Origin: Candidatus Curtissbacteria bacterium
GTDB lineage: Bacteria > Patescibacteriota > Microgenomatia > Curtissbacterales > GWA2-41-24
DNA length: 45,641 bases
Reading direction: 5' to 3'
Assembly: GCA_024654445.1 (NCBI GenBank)
Contig: JANLHP010000015.1
Coordinates: forward strand, 1-45,641
Position numbers and translations under genes: made by a program. Shown here piece by piece: positions 11,258 through 37,940 of this stretch. The stretch's first letter is position 1, and each line of letters opens with the position of its first letter. The notes under the pieces are model-generated. The model ran no database searches. It was not told where the DNA came from and saw only the letters and a program-made list of their open reading frames with translations.

Positions 11258-11908
11258 CTATGTAAGTAATACACCTCCATCCACAATAATTTGACTACCA
11301 GTTATATAAGAGGACATGTCAGATGCTAAAGAATAATGCGACTTTACCAATGTCATCTGGTTCTCCCATTCGCTGCATTGGATTTTTTATAAAGTTTTCC
11401 AAGTTTTGAAGCATCATAATGAGCAAGACCGACAGATGACGGGTGAAGAACATCAATTGAAGTGACGTTAATAATCCTTCCGTCACGTCCTCGCTTAATC
11501 ATTTGCTCTGCAACATATTTTGTGTAGAGAAACACGCTCTTGAGGTTTACAGCAAGAACTTTTTCAAAATCTGCAAGAGCCATACTCATAACAGGCATGG
11601 AAGGATATATACCGGCATTATTGATTAAAGTATCAATGGAGCCGTAAGTTTGAATTGTTTTCTTAACCATCTGCATAATATCTTTTTCTTTAGGTACATC
11701 AGCTTGAATTGATAATGCATTACAGCCGGTTTTTGGTAGTTCCCTCGCAGTCTTATCGGCCTTGTCTTTGCCGAGGCTAGTGACGATTACGTTAGCTCCG
11801 GCTTGAGCCAGTCGGCAGGAGATACCATATCCTATTTCAACTGCTCTCTGTTACGATCGCAGTTTTCCCGGTTAAATCTAGTAATTTATTGACTTGTATT
11901 AATTCCAT
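11258..11908 (-). pseudogene. decayed SDR-family oxidoreductase
   Basis: A short-chain dehydrogenase/reductase gene broken at three or more points. The first frame starts MELIQVNKLLDLTGKTAIVT and meets a stop. A +1 shift (about 11850) restores AVEIGYGIS and runs through INNAG, INVTS and the active-site YDASK. About 45-50 codons after YDASK are deleted with another shift, leading into RMGEPDDIGKVALFF; a third frame holds ASDMSSYITGS and IIVDGG to TAG. Only the middle part (11353-11676) is a long ORF. It is the one clearly dead gene in an otherwise intact operon. Confidence 0.85.
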
Positions 11909-12787: not shown

Positions 12788-13270
12788 TTAGCTCCTTTTA
12801 GTGGTTTTTACCAACTTAAGGTAGCCAAGAATGAGCGCGATTACAAACCCTATTGCAACGATAATGAATCGAAACTTATCGTCTCCGCTGGCTATTCCTC
12901 TTATGATGCTGTAAAAAAGCGTAAGAACACCTCCAAGCAACAATCCGTCCGCGATAAGTAAAATTTTCTTGAAAAAAGTAAGGCTGATTACGAGCGTTAC
13001 TATTGAGGCGACAATCGCGATAAGCGCGACATTGCGGTTATAAACTTTCATCCTCTCCTGAAAATCTTTGAACTCTAGGTCGTATTGTTCTTGTTTATTT
13101 TTCAACTCTACAAAAACAGATTCGCTAACCCTTTCTTCGGGCCGTGTAACCTTAAGCGCCGATGGCATTTCGGGCTCCTTTGGAGTTTCATAAAATGCAG
13201 CAATGCCGAAACCTACAAGCGCGGCAAATAAAACTCCAATAAATATCGTGTAAACAAACCTAAGAATCAT
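12788..13270 (-). CDS. membrane protein with coiled segment (three predicted TM helices)
   Basis: 160-aa membrane protein if started at the ATG at 13270, which overlaps the universal-stress-protein stop by 11 nt and begins MILRFVYTIFIGVLF. There is a TM helix at 3-22, a charged, probably coiled stretch at about 40-75 (ELKNKQEQYDLEFKDFQERM), and further hydrophobic helices to the end, finishing in KTTKRS. I do not recognise a family. A longer in-frame start at 13315 exists but would add a non-membrane N-terminus and deeper overlap. Confidence 0.65.
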   Translation of the reverse strand: MILRFVYTIFIGVLFAALVGFGIAAFYETPKEPEMPSALKVTRPEERVSESVFVELKNKQEQYDLEFKDFQERMKVYNRNVALIAIVASIVTLVISLTFFKKILLIADGLLLGGVLTLFYSIIRGIASGDDKFRFIIVAIGFVIALILGYLKLVKTTKRS

Positions 13271-13772
13271 ACTTTTCCCCTTCCGGACGAACAACCAATA
13301 TCGGGCATGAAGCATGGCGAATCACATAATCGGCAACAGAACCCAAAAGTACACGTCTAAGGCCTGAACGACCGTGTGTCGATATTACAATTAGGTCGCA
13401 GTGCTGTTTTTTTGCAGTTGAGACAATTTTTGAAGTATCAATGCCTTGCTGCACAATTATGGAGACTTTCCCGGTATGATTTTCTTCCAGTTGTGCCTTT
13501 ATTTCTTCCAGTCCTGCTTTTGCTCTTTTAACTTTGTCTTTGATAATTTCTTTTGCTAACGCTTCGTCTGCGGGAATAGGAGAATATACTGTTGGAGGAA
13601 TTCCAACAGGAACAAGACCAGCTATTTCCTGCTCTACGGTTGGAACCACCTGAAGTAATATAACTTCAGCGCCCAAAAGGTTTGCCAAGGTGTTAACGTG
13701 TGGTATGGCAGCGGACGCGAGCTTCGAGCCATCGTGCGTTACAAGGATTTTTCTGTATACTACTTTCCTCAT
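13260..13772 (-). CDS. universal stress protein (UspA family)
   Basis: 170-aa UspA-fold protein. The start is set at 13772 (MRKVVYRKILVTHDGS) because its ATG overlaps the stop of the upstream 97-aa gene as ATGA. Strand 1 and the nucleotide loop begin ILVTHDGSKLASAA. The ATP-binding signature G-x2-G-x9-G-S is present in STHGRSGLRRVLLGSVAD, which ends the classic STHGRSG pattern. ATP-binding Usp proteins act in starvation and oxygen/redox stress, which fits the operon. An in-frame longer start at 13832 is less likely. Confidence 0.9.
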   Translation of the reverse strand: MRKVVYRKILVTHDGSKLASAAIPHVNTLANLLGAEVILLQVVPTVEQEIAGLVPVGIPPTVYSPIPADEALAKEIIKDKVKRAKAGLEEIKAQLEENHTGKVSIIVQQGIDTSKIVSTAKKQHCDLIVISTHGRSGLRRVLLGSVADYVIRHASCPILVVRPEGEKYDS

Positions 13773-14062
13773 TCTCTGACCTTTCCTTGTCCACCCGGTT
13801 TTCCCAAAATTGCCATTGGTCGTTCCCGCCATATCCGGTTTACCTTGTATTTAAGCGTATAGATATAAAGAAGAACCCAGCCATTTTGGAGTAATGAATT
13901 TACGATTTTTCTTCCTTCGGATTCTATGTTGTGTCCGGCAAGCTGTGTAATATTTAAGGACCATAATGGTTTGCACGAAAGGTCAATTATCTTTCGTGGA
14001 ATTTTTATAATTTCGGAGAAATTACGTGAATTTGTGAACTCAATTTTTGTATCGTCTTTCAT
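13769..14062 (-). CDS. 97-aa protein of unknown function
   Basis: 97 residues, basic (KIPRKIIDLS, YKVNRIWRER), with a short hydrophobic stretch VLLYIYTL and no motif I can name. It overlaps the yjbQ stop by ATGA (14059-14062), and its own stop overlaps the Usp start by ATGA (13769-13772). That tight double coupling argues it is a real, translated gene rather than a chance ORF. Confidence 0.6.
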   Translation of the reverse strand: MKDDTKIEFTNSRNFSEIIKIPRKIIDLSCKPLWSLNITQLAGHNIESEGRKIVNSLLQNGWVLLYIYTLKYKVNRIWRERPMAILGKPGGQGKVRE

Positions 14063-14460
14063 AAAGAAATAATTATTTGTCTTTTTTTAGGCCCATTTAA
14101 CTCGATCAAAATGATTCTTTGATACTCCCCCAAAAGTAGTTTTCCATTTTTATATGGAACGGAAAGTGAAGGACCGAAATAAGCGGCAGTGACATGACTA
14201 GGTAGATGAGCAACATGGTGGTTATGGGCGTATTGGTCTCTAATTGTTGTGAATCTTGGAATTTCAACTTCAAACGCGTCTACCAGTTCCAGTTCCAACT
14301 TCGGGTCTAAATAGGAGGTTGTAAGCGCGGCTGTAGTATGCGCTACAAATAGTTGGCAAAAACCCTCTTTTTGCTTTTGTGCTTTAACAAGCGCAGCGAT
14401 TTTATCTGTTATATCAACAATCCCCTTCTGTTTTTTAGTTTTGATAATAAGTTTTTCCAT
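14059..14460 (-). CDS. YjbQ family protein (UPF0047)
   Basis: 133-aa YjbQ-type protein. The conserved core is complete: AHTTAALTTSY, then HNHHVAHLPSHVTAAYFG, then GKLLLGEYQRIILIELNGP. The His cluster is the presumed metal/active site; some members have weak thiamin-phosphate-synthase-like activity in other bacteria, but the physiological role is uncertain. A strong Shine-Dalgarno (GAGGTGAT) precedes the ATG. It is within the stress operon, coupled to the 97-aa gene downstream. Confidence 0.92.
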   Translation of the reverse strand: MEKLIIKTKKQKGIVDITDKIAALVKAQKQKEGFCQLFVAHTTAALTTSYLDPKLELELVDAFEVEIPRFTTIRDQYAHNHHVAHLPSHVTAAYFGPSLSVPYKNGKLLLGEYQRIILIELNGPKKRQIIISL

Positions 14461-14474
14461 CTATCACCTCTTTT

Positions 14475-14687
14475 TCATTTTATTTTCCATACTAGATACA
14501 AGAAGAAGACGAGAAGCAGTGCGTCTACAATCATAGCTATAGTGTTGATTTCCCGGGTAAGAGTAAAGTTAAAAAAAGTTTTACTTGTAAATGGCATCAT
14601 GTCATCAAGAATAAACCAGGCGTGAACTAATAATTCGTGTACGAGTGCGCCTACTGCGAATATGGAGATAATCTTTAATTTATTCAT
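14475..14687 (-). CDS. small membrane protein (two TM helices)
   Basis: 70-aa protein with hydrophobic helices at about 5-25 and 47-68 and a charged end (VWKIK). The ATG overlaps the stop of the upstream aeRF1-like gene (ATGA at about 14684-14687 within GAAAATGAATAA), indicating translational coupling. Residues HELLVHAWF between the helices carry two His, but no family is recognised. Confidence 0.6.
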   Translation of the reverse strand: MNKLKIISIFAVGALVHELLVHAWFILDDMMPFTSKTFFNFTLTREINTIAMIVDALLLVFFLYLVWKIK

Positions 14688-15477
14688 TTTCTACTCCTTT
14701 TCCGGTGTTTATCCCCTGTGCGATTTCCTTGCTATGTAAAAAAACTTCGTTCAGGGGAATATTAAGTTCCGTGACAAATTCTCCAAGGACAAGTTTGTTA
14801 AGCGGGTAAGTTAAATGTTTTTTAACTTTCGGGATAATGTCTTTATGGCCACCGATGATGACAAAACTGACGGGGTAATCTTTGGCAAACTTACGTGTTT
14901 CCCGAGCTATTAATTTAAGGTGCCTGTGCAAATGATCTTCTATATGTCTCATAATTTTCCCCTGTTGATCCCACGTGTCGTCTCCATGCTTTACCCTTTG
15001 CGGCACTTGTCCATCGAGGACATTCTTATGCTCCTGCATCTCCCCCAAATAAACAGTGAACAGTCGTGCTTTTTCCCTGTCGGCGAGTAGGACTAAATAC
15101 GGCTTATATTCGTCCAAAGCTTCTATTATGGGTTGAATGTAAGGTGAGTATGAGATAGTGCAAAGTGGAGGAAGATAAAACTCGAATTCTAAAATTTCCC
15201 ATAATTTCTTGTCTGCTGTAAAGAAGGCGATGCTTCTGTTGCCGCGAGAATCGTATGCAGTTTTAAGGTATTCATCTACACGTCTAATGTCCTTTCTGAA
15301 CTTTTTCCATTCTTCTTCTCCCAGGGTTTGATTAATTAGAGAGTGAAATATAGAAGATATATTAGATGAAATAGGTGTTTTCGTTCCCGTCGTGCCCAGG
15401 TAGACAGATAATATTGGAAAGGGAGAATTAGAAAATTCTCGAAGTTTTTTTATGGTTTTCTCAACTTTGTTGTCCAT
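14680..15477 (-). CDS. bacterial aeRF1/VLRF1-like (baeRF family) protein
   Basis: 265-aa protein from the ATG at 15477 (MDNKVEKTIKKL). Its central part YLVLLADREKARLFTVYLGE, then HRHLKLIARETRKFAKD and FVIIGGHKDIIPKVKKHL, fits the bacterial archaeo-eukaryotic release-factor-like family, relatives of eRF1 and the Vms1/ANKZF1 peptidyl-tRNA-cleaving domain. No GGQ is evident. A ribosome-rescue or peptidyl-tRNA function is an inference from the family. The start overlaps the pcm stop; a longer start at 15531 is possible but would intrude further into pcm. Confidence 0.7.
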   Translation of the reverse strand: MDNKVEKTIKKLREFSNSPFPILSVYLGTTGTKTPISSNISSIFHSLINQTLGEEEWKKFRKDIRRVDEYLKTAYDSRGNRSIAFFTADKKLWEILEFEFYLPPLCTISYSPYIQPIIEALDEYKPYLVLLADREKARLFTVYLGEMQEHKNVLDGQVPQRVKHGDDTWDQQGKIMRHIEDHLHRHLKLIARETRKFAKDYPVSFVIIGGHKDIIPKVKKHLTYPLNKLVLGEFVTELNIPLNEVFLHSKEIAQGINTGKGVENE

Positions 15478-16180
15478 ATATTTTATGATTATTTTTTTGC
15501 TTCTGATAAAAATTGCCAAAGTTATCGCCAAAGCCTAATTTTCCTCGAAGCGGGACAAAAGCAACGGGTTCGATGTCGATAAATTTGATCGTACTTCCCG
15601 TTTTTTTACCTACTTTTAATTGTTGTCCATAAAGATTATCTCCGATCGGAATGACGATTCTGCCGCCTGCTTTAAGTTGGTCAATCAATGGTTGAGGAAT
15701 TCGATTACCGGCAGCTGTCACAACAATAGCATCATACGGAGCGTATTTAGGAAGACCGACAGAACCATCGCCTATTTCAACTTGAACATTATTAAGTTGT
15801 AATTCTTCGAGAACTTTTGCCGCCCTGTCTGCTAATTTCCCAATTACTTCTATCGTATAGACCTTTTTGGCGAGCTGCGAAAGAATTGCCGCTTGGAAAC
15901 CGGAGCCTGTACCCACTTCCAGTACCTTTTCGCGGCCCTCGAGTTCCAGCGCCTGAGTCATTACGGCGACCAGCGACGGTTGACTGATCGTTTGACCTTC
16001 ACCAATCGGCAGCGGGATATCCAAATAAGCATCCTGTCGATATTTTGCAGGGACAAACTTATGTCTCGGGACCTTCAGGAAAGCACTTATGACACGCCGG
16101 TCTGTCACCCCTGCCGGTTTTATGTAACCTTCCACAAGTTCTTTTTGCGATTTTCGAACCTCTCTAAGTTTAAAATCCAT
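15461..16180 (-). CDS. pcm: protein-L-isoaspartate O-methyltransferase
   Basis: 239-aa class I SAM methyltransferase that repairs isoaspartyl residues of damaged proteins. Features include the PCMT N-terminal QTISQPSLVAVMTQAL (substrate loop), SAM motif I VLEVGTGSGFQAAIL, YTIEVIGKLADRA and the PLRGKLGF C-terminal region. A near-perfect Shine-Dalgarno AAGGAGGAATT precedes the ATG, which overlaps the HPF/RaiA-like gene by 11 nt. It appears complete and functional. Confidence 0.95.
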   Translation of the reverse strand: MDFKLREVRKSQKELVEGYIKPAGVTDRRVISAFLKVPRHKFVPAKYRQDAYLDIPLPIGEGQTISQPSLVAVMTQALELEGREKVLEVGTGSGFQAAILSQLAKKVYTIEVIGKLADRAAKVLEELQLNNVQVEIGDGSVGLPKYAPYDAIVVTAAGNRIPQPLIDQLKAGGRIVIPIGDNLYGQQLKVGKKTGSTIKFIDIEPVAFVPLRGKLGFGDNFGNFYQKQKNNHKIYGQQS

Positions 16181-16523
16181 AATTCCTCCTTACCGATTCA
16201 TGACGATAGTACTGGCTGTCATTCGTAAAGTGCTTCCCCTTATATCTGCTTAATTCTTTAAACAAATGCTCAAAAGCCTGATTAATTGCTTCGTCCGCGT
16301 TAGCACCTTGGAAGTAAGTGTATAAATGTTTTTTAGGAAGAGAGAGATAAATAGAACCATCAAAAAAATTTCTTCTCCTGTTTCTTTTAATGACCACTTT
16401 GATTAAACCCAGACCTCGATCGATATGCGGCAACCATTGTTCAAGTTTTTGTACATGCCTATCAATTGAATCCCAAAGATGGCTGCTTAACCGATACTGT
16501 CTTGCTGTAATACATAGATTCAT
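16170..16523 (-). CDS. HPF/RaiA-like ribosome-associated protein
   Basis: 117-aa protein resembling the short hibernation-promoting factor / sigma-54 modulation family: an N-terminal strand-helix (WDSIDRHVQKLEQWLPH), then FFDGSIYLSLPKKHLYTYFQG and the helix ADEAINQAFEHLFKELSRYKGKH (given in part: EAINQAFEHLFKELSRYK). Such proteins bind 30S subunits and stop or protect idle ribosomes. A good Shine-Dalgarno (AAGGGAGAA) precedes the ATG. It is the second stress gene after Hsp20, with a 98-nt spacer. Confidence 0.8.
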   Translation of the reverse strand: MNLCITARQYRLSSHLWDSIDRHVQKLEQWLPHIDRGLGLIKVVIKRNRRRNFFDGSIYLSLPKKHLYTYFQGANADEAINQAFEHLFKELSRYKGKHFTNDSQYYRHESVRRNYGF

Positions 16524-16621: not shown

Positions 16622-17026
16622 TCAACCTGTCTTTACGACAATTTTTTTAGGTTGAGATTTTGGAGCTTTTGCAAAAGTTACCGTCATAACACCATTTTTT
16701 GCTTCAGCCTTCGGTTCTTTATTTGTGTCTACTTCTCCCGGAACCAAAACGCGGTAAGAAAAAGAACTCGATGCTTTGCGAAAATATTTTTTCTTCTTTT
16801 CTTCCTCTTCTTTTTCGCCCCTAATTGTTAATATTCCTTTTTCGAAAGTGACGTCGACATTTTTAGGGTCGATCCCCGGCACCGCCGCTTCTACATATAC
16901 GTTATTATTGTCTTCGGAAATCGAAAGCCCGCTGATTGTCGCAGTTGCAGGTAGTAGATCGTCTTCTAATTCTTCGAACAGAGTTGGGAATCCCCACATA
17001 GATCTTGGTACTAAATAGTCATTCAT
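16622..17026 (-). CDS. Hsp20 / alpha-crystallin small heat-shock protein
   Basis: 134-aa small heat-shock protein, an ATP-independent holdase. The alpha-crystallin domain covers about 34-128, with VYVEAAVPGIDPKNVDV, the GILTIRGEK strand and the late A-KNGVMTVTFAKAP motif. The N-terminal arm is short (MNDYLVPRSMWGFPTLFEEL start). The Shine-Dalgarno GGGGGTG lies in the 3' end of the 71-aa ORF, whose stop overlaps this start (ATGA at 17023-17026). It lies at the head of the stress operon, close to the Crp/Fnr-type palindrome. Confidence 0.93.
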   Translation of the reverse strand: MNDYLVPRSMWGFPTLFEELEDDLLPATATISGLSISEDNNNVYVEAAVPGIDPKNVDVTFEKGILTIRGEKEEEEKKKKYFRKASSSFSYRVLVPGEVDTNKEPKAEAKNGVMTVTFAKAPKSQPKKIVVKTG

Positions 17027-17238
17027 TTACATTCACCCCCTTTCGTCTCACTTGTTATAATTGTGTCCGGGTTGAATGCTAGAACTTGGAAGATCTGTCC
17101 GGGTAATGAATCTTGAACTAAGCTCTTCAGAGGCCTCAAGGATGTGCTTAATTTTGACGGAAGTAGAAGGCGTGCTCCCTCTAAACCGCGACTTGGGAGA
17201 AATAAATTATTTTTAGTGACCGTAAGTGTTTCTATCAT
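17023..17238 (-). CDS. 71-aa ORF coupled to Hsp20
   Basis: 71 residues, mixed hydrophobic/polar (TVTKNNLFLPSRGLEGARLL near the start), no recognised domain. Its stop overlaps the Hsp20 start by ATGA. It is either a small first protein of the operon or a leader whose translation controls access to the Hsp20 Shine-Dalgarno. Confidence 0.45.
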   Translation of the reverse strand: MIETLTVTKNNLFLPSRGLEGARLLLPSKLSTSLRPLKSLVQDSLPGQIFQVLAFNPDTIITSETKGGECK

Positions 17239-17298
17239 GTTGAATGTAGAATAACCGATTCTTCAAGAGACTGCAGTGATGTTCATTACATGCTGTGG

Positions 17299-17304
17299 AT
17301 GATA
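17299..17304 (-). promoter_or_regulatory. candidate -10 box (TATCAT) of the stress operon
   Basis: Minus-strand TATCAT. Start of transcription would fall near 17292, which puts the centre of the 17319-17338 palindrome near -37 to -41, the position used by Crp/Fnr-type activators. A second candidate, TGTAAT at 17285-17290, would place it near -50. Confidence 0.4.
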
Positions 17305-17318
17305 TGTAGTACCTTTAA

Positions 17319-17338
17319 TTTGTGACGTTTGTCACAAA
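17319..17338. promoter_or_regulatory. Crp/Fnr-type operator palindrome
   Basis: A perfect inverted repeat: TTTGTGAC, four bases, GTCACAAA, containing exactly TGTGA-N6-TCACA, the Crp-type consensus. It lies between the divergent Crp/Fnr-family gene (17373, plus) and the Hsp20-led operon (17238, minus), so the neighbouring regulator is the obvious ligand. Confidence 0.85.
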
Positions 17339-17345
17339 AACCTGC

Positions 17346-17351
17346 TAGAAT
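17346..17351 (+). promoter_or_regulatory. -10 box (TAGAAT) of the Crp/Fnr-family gene
   Basis: TAGAAT 21 nt before the GTG at 17373. Transcription would start near 17358, placing the palindrome centre near -29, overlapping the -35 region, which suggests self-repression. Confidence 0.5.
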
Positions 17352-17372
17352 TCGCGGGCCGCCGATTTTATT

Positions 17373-18032
17373 GTGGTAATTGATACTGTTTCTCAAAAAT
17401 TAGACCGGTTTTTCTCTCAATCAAAACCTTTCTACTATAAAAAAGGTGATATTTTAGTCCGTGCGGATGACCCAATATTTGGAGTTTTTTTGTTAAAAAA
17501 AGGTCTCGTCAGGCAGTATGTTGTTTCCGAAAAGGGCGATGAGTTGACAATCCATATATATAAACCGGTTTGTTTTTTCCCAGTCATGTTAGTTTTTTAT
17601 AGCGTTGCCAATCCTTATTACTTTGAAGCAATGGATGACATAGAGGTTTGGCGAATGCCTCCGGAGAAGGTAACAGAATTTTTGAAAAGTGAACCCGATG
17701 TTCTTTTGGATTTAACAAGAAGGTTTGCAGCAGGACTTGTTGGCCTTTCGACCAGGATAGAAAATTTAATGTTTAAAGACACATACGGAAGGATTGCTTC
17801 TCTTTTAACCTATTTTGCGAAAAGATTTGGACGGCGAGAAGAAGGTGTAACCGTGATAAAAATACCATTGACTCACAAAGATTTAGCTTCCTGGGTTGGC
17901 GCATCAAGAGAAAATGTTACCAGGCAAATTGAAAAGTTAAGGAGAAAGGGTTTAATTACTTTCGACAATCACATGATCGGAGTGAAGGACATTCGAAAGT
18001 TAGAGAAAGAATCTACTGGTGGCCGTGATTAA
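17373..18032 (+). CDS. Crp/Fnr family transcriptional regulator
   Basis: 219-aa regulator. Residues about 12-120 form a cyclic-nucleotide-binding-type beta barrel (YYKKGDILVRADDPIFGVFLLKKG, in part KGDILVRADD). The C-terminal winged HTH contains LTHKDLASWVGASRENVTRQ and EKLRRKGLIT. No N-terminal Cys cluster for an Fnr-type Fe-S centre is seen, and the usual cAMP-site phosphate motif is not clear, so the signal is unknown. A perfect Crp-type palindrome lies 35 bp upstream, shared with the divergent stress operon. The GTG start is used. Confidence 0.9.
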   Translation: MVIDTVSQKLDRFFSQSKPFYYKKGDILVRADDPIFGVFLLKKGLVRQYVVSEKGDELTIHIYKPVCFFPVMLVFYSVANPYYFEAMDDIEVWRMPPEKVTEFLKSEPDVLLDLTRRFAAGLVGLSTRIENLMFKDTYGRIASLLTYFAKRFGRREEGVTVIKIPLTHKDLASWVGASRENVTRQIEKLRRKGLITFDNHMIGVKDIRKLEKESTGGRD

Positions 18033-37733: not shown

Positions 37734-37806
37734 GGGATGTGTGATTTGCTCGGTAGCACCCAGGAGAGGATTCGCGATTTGCTTGCTAGAAGGGATGTGT
37801 GATTTG
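37734..37806. repeat. 15-bp direct repeats
   Basis: GGGATGTGTGATTTG occurs at 37734-37748 and again at 37792-37806, with a related GCGATTTGCTTGCT between them. The rest of the 230-nt spacer up to the tRNA holds short inverted repeats: ACTATTGAA/TTCAATAGT (about 37833-37859), AGCGAACCCT/AGGGTCGCT (about 37870-37892) and ACAAAATATATTTTGT (37905-37920). No ORF is supported. Confidence 0.5.
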
Positions 37807-37940
37807 TTTCACAAATCCACATATGATTTCGTAACTATTGAAATAGTTTTTTCAATAGTACTCCATCATAGCGAACCCTAAGAGGGTCGCTCCGTCGTAC
37901 TTACACAAAATATATTTTGTACAGTAACAAAAATATTTTG

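Follow-up and report, generated by a model that had tools for sequence, protein, structure and literature searches.

The window analysed here, a stretch of 45.6 kb from a genome of 1.04 Mb (97% complete), holds the gene of a CRP/FNR-family regulator and, divergent from it, a group of stress genes headed by a short ORF and continuing with Hsp20, HPF, PCMT and a baeRF protein (Table 1). The first-pass annotation had taken Hsp20 as the first gene of this operon. That assignment has to be revised, as an overlooked ORF of 71 codons (17238-17023) precedes it. An ORF of identical length and overlap occupies the corresponding position in the sister genus G001, and the two align without gaps (38% identity, E 6e-10). 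The 71-codon ORF matched no known family and shows a weak codon-position signal (30/26/36 differences), so that we regard it as a probable rather than a certain gene. With this ORF in place, the gap between the two divergent start codons, GTG of the regulator at 17373 and ATG of the ORF at 17238, is 134 bp; it would be 346 bp to Hsp20 if the ORF were disregarded. We also considered the Hsp20 leader as an RNA thermometer and rejected it, because shuffled versions of this stretch fold just as well (z 0.12).

Table 1. Genes, operators and candidate promoter elements of the locus, in order of position.
Feature	Position	Strand	Remarks
Universal stress protein (Usp)	13260..13832	-	PF00582; operon membership uncertain
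UPF0047 (YjbQ-like)	14059..14460	-	PF01894; 220-bp gap, operon membership uncertain
baeRF family 10 protein, related to Balon/Rv2629 hibernation factors	14680..15477	-	PF18854
PCMT, protein-L-isoaspartate O-methyltransferase	15461..16180	-	PF01135; NCBIfam equivalogs over cut-off
Ribosome hibernation-promoting factor, HPF/RaiA type	16170..16523	-	PF02482
Hsp20 small heat-shock protein	16622..17026	-	PF00011
71-codon ORF, first operon gene	17023..17238	-	stop overlaps Hsp20 start (ATGA)
Candidate stress-operon -10, TATTCT	17248..17253	-	weak hexamer, 4/6
O3, second, weaker operator, GCAGTGATGTTCATTACATG	17273..17292	.	centre 17282.5; 46 bp from O1
O2, degenerate middle operator, TGGATGATATGTAGTACCTT	17296..17315	.	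inferred from phasing; 23 bp to O1 and O3
Alternative stress-operon -10, TATCAT	17299..17304	-	24.5 bp from O1 centre; absent in G001
O1, main operator, TTTGTGACGTTTGTCACAAA	17319..17338	.	perfect TGTGA-N6-TCACA palindrome, centre 17328.5
Extended -10 of regulator gene, TAGAAT	17346..17351	+	9/12, TG before (TGC at 17343-17345); predicted
CRP/FNR-family regulator, 219 aa	17373..18032	+	GTG start; PF00027 + PF13545

The assignments of the operon genes differ in strength. HPF passes PF02482 marginally (24.4 vs 23.7 bits) and stays below the cut-off of TIGR00741. The baeRF protein scores 96.3 bits with PF18854, over the cut-off, and reaches the NCBIfam hibernation-factor models, NF052289 among them, only below theirs. 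As for the two distal genes, UPF0047 also lies beside the regulator in two other genomes (G115 and G049), and a Usp gene follows baeRF in another (G278). Further along the same strand lies a short-chain dehydrogenase ORF of only 107 aa (11353-11676), whose family is represented intact in G001 (260 aa, after baeRF, L027 8450-9232); it is apparently the remnant, decayed or truncated, of a gene from the former tail of the operon.

The regulator is a two-domain protein, with a cNMP-binding domain (PF00027, 50.3 bits, cut-off 27.5) and a Crp-type HTH (PF13545, 65 bits, cut-off 27). Its AlphaFold model (pLDDT 93.5) has the CRP fold with a recognition helix; the best Foldseek match is 3d0s (TM 0.88), and the best PDB matches are Mtb CRP, GlxR and NtcA. 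The NCBIfam cut-offs are reached neither for CRP (NF008732, 56.6 vs 266) nor for FNR (NF008365, 48.9 vs 228) nor for NtcA (TIGR03697, 69.5 vs 244.95). The protein has one Cys, at residue 67, which bears out the earlier remark that an Fnr-type Cys cluster is lacking and argues against a 4Fe-4S cluster. The Glu and Arg of the cAMP pocket, sought in the alignment, are absent as well; across the family their place is taken by a conserved hydrophobic stretch, FFPMxWAxNxxPNxYYFEA. The pocket that takes up the signal would be neither an Fe-S cluster nor a cAMP site. In the recognition helix, R179, E180 and R184 align with R180, E181 and R185 of CRP, which are base-contacting residues (PMC12531629). 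The first two are near-invariant in the family, and residue 184 varies.

The palindrome reported at 17319-17338 is there exactly as described: the symmetrical 20-mer occupies those positions, and its core, TGTGACGTTTGTCACA (17321-17336), has no mismatch. It lies within the 134-bp gap. Scored with the matrix of the family motif described below, it reaches 18.7 and is the best CRP/FNR-type site of the window; 15 dinucleotide shuffles of the window gave no match at 18 or above. At a threshold of 11, the window contains three matches, two of which fall within the regulator/operon gap. The bare pattern is by itself uninformative: allowing one mismatch, TGTGA-N6-TCACA occurs at 13 places genome-wide against 14 for the reversed control, so that the evidence for O1 beyond chance comes from relatives. 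One other perfect match exists in the genome, at 37798-37813. It is probably not an operator, and we rejected it: it lies where the end of a gene faces a tRNA gene of opposite orientation, a convergent 3' region, and RNA folding around it was no better than in shuffles. The element GGGATGTGTGATTTG is present twice in 37737-37813, and its second copy creates this perfect match by the tRNA gene.

Of 374 genomes searched within one class, 159 carry a relative of the regulator. De novo palindromic expectation maximization (EM) was run on 95 upstream regions of related regulators. All four seeds led to TTTGTGA-N6-TCACAAA (in its general form TGTRA-N6-TYACA); the log-likelihood was 197, versus 22-34 in shuffles, and 51 of the 95 promoters had a site. 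With the matrix then fixed, 19 of 51 hold-out regulators, previously unused, had a site (shuffles 0.4, maximum 2). Conservation of the palindrome beside relatives had been set in advance as the test on which the claim could fail; as the motif recurs in both sets, the refutation did not occur.

The variable residue 184 tracks the fourth base of the half-site. Using a site finder that was blind to this base, we found TGTGA halves at 27:5 for regulators with Arg or Lys at 184 (G in 27 of 32 half-sites) and at 15:55 for those with Leu, Ile, Val or Met (15 of 70); with Leu, Ile or Val the halves are mostly TGTAA or TGTTA. The association is strong by Fisher's test (2e-9 per half-site, 2e-5 per site), with the qualification that relatives are not independent, and it reappears in the hold-out set (6:2 vs 5:31, p 0.0014). 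Residue 184 has changed independently only some 3-5 times on the tree, which leaves a tree-controlled covariation test without power. The regulator studied here, with Arg-184 and a TGTGA/TCACA site at O1, agrees with the rule. Given the CRP-like triad, the motif beside relatives and this covariation, it is very likely, as far as sequence comparison can tell, that the adjacent regulator reads O1. A paralogous regulator in the same genome (G000:C11:11747-12373, L020; 36% identity) has Ile-184 and TGTTA-type operators. Another genome, G090 (L170 5579-6832), carries tandem regulators, one with Ile-184 and a TGTTA operator and one with Arg-184, followed by a gene of the KWQGY family (see below), HPF and baeRF.

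O1 does not stand alone. Taking the best site in each promoter and then the distance to a second site, we found the second operator exactly at -23 bp in 12 of 43 training promoters, with at most one at any other distance (z 5.1). The same register governs the hold-out set, where 10 of 19 promoters have the second site at -23 and 3 at +23, with at most one elsewhere (z 5.6). The auxiliary operators of the family share the form [GT]CAGTRA-N6-TTACA. At our locus, O3 carries this [GT]CAGTRA...TTACA signature (matrix score 11.4), and a site of its grade would be expected by chance at about 0.008 anywhere in the 346-bp stretch to Hsp20 and at about 7e-5 in register. In G001 its counterpart, TCAGTATTTAAAATTACAAA, is likewise 46 bp away. 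The middle position is occupied by O2, whose score is -4.1 and which may be non-functional; its G001 counterpart, CCAGTGCGACGGATCACCTT, is clearer (2.6), and all three positions of the array are recognisable in that genome (TCAGTATTTAAAATTACAAA, CCAGTGCGACGGATCACCTT, ATTGTGATTAGAATCACGGA). The paralogue has two separate 23-bp operator pairs, one for each of its divergent promoters.

What such an array does depends on where it lies relative to the promoters. On the regulator side, the extended -10 TGC-TAGAAT puts the transcription start near 17358 and the centre of O1 at -29.5 (about -30) from that predicted start. The first-pass annotation had placed O1 near -29, a repressing position, and this reading is upheld. 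Because O1 overlaps the regulator promoter with its centre at about -30, the arrangement fits self-repression, and from this geometry we think it rather probable that the regulator represses its own gene through O1. Across the family, the distance from operator centre to the regulator's own -10 ranges from 13.5 to 40.5 bp, a variability which implies that repression and activation of the own gene both occur; a spread of this width is tolerated under repression. In clade f7 (L045, L049, L055, L056, L065, L070, L082 and others), where regulator and VKOR gene diverge and a DsbA-like thioredoxin often accompanies them, the operator lies 29.5-30.5 bp from the regulator's own -10. This clade is perhaps a redox branch with self-activation.

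On the operon side, we calibrated the geometry of activation on genes of the KWQGY family, another neighbour of the regulator. In the 12 cases beside a regulator, a site, in some of them weak, is centred -41 to -46 from the start codon, and in four genomes (G084, G090, G001 and G064) it lies 29.5 bp from a -10; the 7 KWQGY genes without a regulator have no site save one weak match. An hsp20 gene in G115 similarly has an operator 30.5 bp from TATAGT. The calibrated targets of the family thus show a centre-to--10 distance of 29.5-30.5 bp, which corresponds to the -41.5 at which class II sites in E. coli are usually centred (PMC2859248). The KWQGY genes (L175 7141-7506; L177-L196) encode proteins of about 117 aa with an all-beta model (pLDDT 91.9); they are usually convergent with the regulator and usually preceded by a class II-spaced operator, and the protein matches nothing in Pfam or NCBIfam and has no significant counterpart among PDB folds.

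By this yardstick, the earlier proposal that one palindrome serves both promoters, silencing the regulator and activating the Hsp20 operon as a class II site near -40, stands only in its first half. Three points speak for a model in which O1 alone represses the regulator and activates the operon from TATCAT: no plain -10 near O1 on the operon side is better than this hexamer (5/6), no other site comes close to O1 in strength, and at the divergent promoter of the paralogue an operator also lies 23.5 bp from a -10. With this nearest -10, however, the centre of O1 comes to -36.5, a distance of 24.5 bp to the hexamer, as against the usual -41.5 (PMC2859248) and the 29.5-30.5 bp of the family. Moreover, TATCAT is not conserved in G001, whereas the operon and the array are, and with a start near 17292 it would leave a 54-nt leader ahead of the 71-aa ORF. 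The model with O1 acting alone on both sides, and with it activation of the operon through O1 alone, is therefore improbable.

The second candidate, TATTCT, was picked because its spacing to O3 equals that at the calibrated targets. The centre of O3 is exactly 29.5 bp from this hexamer, a class II spacing of -41.5 that depends on a predicted start and a weak -10. That start would fall near 17241, about 3 nt ahead of the 71-codon ORF, making the transcript almost leaderless. As the hexamer is weak and a clear -10 at the matching distance from O3 was not found in G001, the class II step at O3 is a prediction. We regard activation of the operon through O3 as a reasonable conjecture, on sequence grounds, somewhat short of probable. 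A third hexamer, the conserved TGTAAT, was dropped as the operon -10, since it is a half-site of O3.

Alternatively, the regulator could be purely a repressor, with O1 covering the -35 regions of both divergent promoters and keeping both off until a stress signal arrives. O1 does overlap both -35 positions (GTCACA-16-TATCAT, with GTCACA inside the palindrome), and the spread of own-promoter spacings is tolerable for repression. The paralogue points the same way: its operators lie 22.5 and 23.5 bp from two divergent -10s, so that its operator pairs support control on both sides, yet at spacings that suggest repression rather than activation. Such a model, however, leaves unexplained both O3 at -41.5 and the fixed activating geometry at the KWQGY genes and the G115 hsp20. 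We consider it rather unlikely, though less so than O1 acting alone.

It is also conceivable that the operators serve autoregulation only, and that the stress operon is driven by a promoter of its own and adjoins them by chance or co-inheritance. The motif occurs beside the regulator in many genomes without a nearby stress operon, and the pattern shows no excess elsewhere in the genome, as this explanation would have it. The distribution of the hibernation genes argues against it. A good baeRF homologue (E < 1e-40) is present in 12 genomes, and in 8 of these the regulator lies within about 3 kb; with a chance of about 1% per gene, this linkage is not accidental. It spans families f1, f3, f16 and f29 with differing gene orders, so that linkage of the regulator to baeRF, HPF and Hsp20 is found in at least four families. 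Operators also stand at hibernation genes that have no regulator next to them, at HPF in G289 and, with a single small gene intervening, upstream of hsp20 in G299 (C24), and G115 has its separate hsp20 operator. Autoregulation alone is thus very unlikely. Of 30 Hsp20 orthologues, the 26 that lack an adjacent regulator have no site within 300 bp upstream, which ties the association to the regulator and not to Hsp20 as such. Genes for HPF, Balon and Hsp20 are known to stand together in the context of hibernation (PMC10901736), and the operon and its regulator are probably a ribosome-hibernation switch. The regulator by the syntenic hsp20 operon of G001 (L027 4823-5491) is only 34% identical and belongs to another branch of the tree; the regulator may therefore have been replaced while operon and operators were kept.

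Taken together, the explanation that we prefer is an array with two functions. The gap would hold a short set of CRP/FNR-type operators in a 23-bp register, O1 perfect, O2 decayed and O3 weaker, to which dimers of the adjacent regulator would bind. Sitting on O1, at about -30, the regulator would cover the spacer and the -35 region of its extended -10 promoter and repress its own gene. On O3, at -41.5 for TATTCT, it would activate the divergent genes from the 71-aa ORF through Hsp20, HPF and PCMT to baeRF in class II fashion. O1 would fill first, and occupation of O3 would need plenty of active regulator or assistance from O1. The products of the operon would stop and protect ribosomes and repair proteins under stress. 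What the sequences themselves show is the operators and their phasing, the motif across the family, its covariation with the recognition helix and the linkage to hibernation genes. We infer the start sites, the sign of regulation on each side, the cooperativity and the signal, and we hold the scheme as a whole, with self-repression at O1 and class II activation at O3, to have about an even chance of being right. More speculatively, a subfamily of CRP/FNR regulators within the Candidate Phyla Radiation might control ribosome hibernation through operator arrays in a strict 23-bp register, in which dimers pack side by side and cooperate, a strong promoter-near site silences the regulator and weaker in-register sites switch a divergent hibernation operon at a threshold. 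This wider reading is tentative, and we think it doubtful in its full form.

The placement of the organism bears on how these results are to be read. Ribosomal proteins uL30 and bL9 are missing, with L2 present, in all 16 relatives tested, a pattern characteristic of the Candidate Phyla Radiation (PMC9698310), to which the organism probably belongs. A 2025 survey reports two-domain CRP/FNR proteins to be notably absent from that radiation (PMC12531629); if the placement is right, our regulator disagrees with this claim. A literature search on CRP/FNR control in Patescibacteria returned nothing relevant in the library searched. Almost nothing is known about regulation in these ultra-small bacteria. 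For the 159 of 374 genomes of one class there is now a readable operator code, from recognition residue to base and in a 23-bp register, and a likely job for the regulator family, switching on ribosome hibernation. A regulon of uncultured bacteria thereby becomes directly testable with purified protein and DNA.

Several known systems resemble parts of this one. With E. coli CRP it shares the TGTGA-N6-TCACA site, the Arg-Glu-x3-Arg triad, the two-domain fold and the class II spacing at calibrated targets; unlike E. coli CRP, the regulator lacks the Glu and Arg of the cAMP pocket and a genome-wide regulon of the pattern, and its operators come in 23-bp pairs. The closest solved folds, mycobacterial CRP, corynebacterial GlxR and cyanobacterial NtcA (TM 0.81-0.89), are 21-25% identical to the regulator and have a different ligand-pocket motif. 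The oxygen and NO sensors FNR, FixK and DNR belong to the same superfamily, but the regulator has a single Cys, and its half-site is TGTGA rather than TTGAT. In combining Hsp20 with Usp, the stress-type regulon is reminiscent of hypoxia regulons, which we take as a lead only. The nearest parallel in gene content is with the stress operons of Balon (baeRF), RaiA (HPF) and Hsp20, in which a Balon-type gene adjoins HPF and Hsp20 (PMC10901736). What differs here is that a CRP/FNR-family regulator is linked to the operon, that a 71-aa ORF is added, and that the lineage, as inferred, is the Candidate Phyla Radiation.
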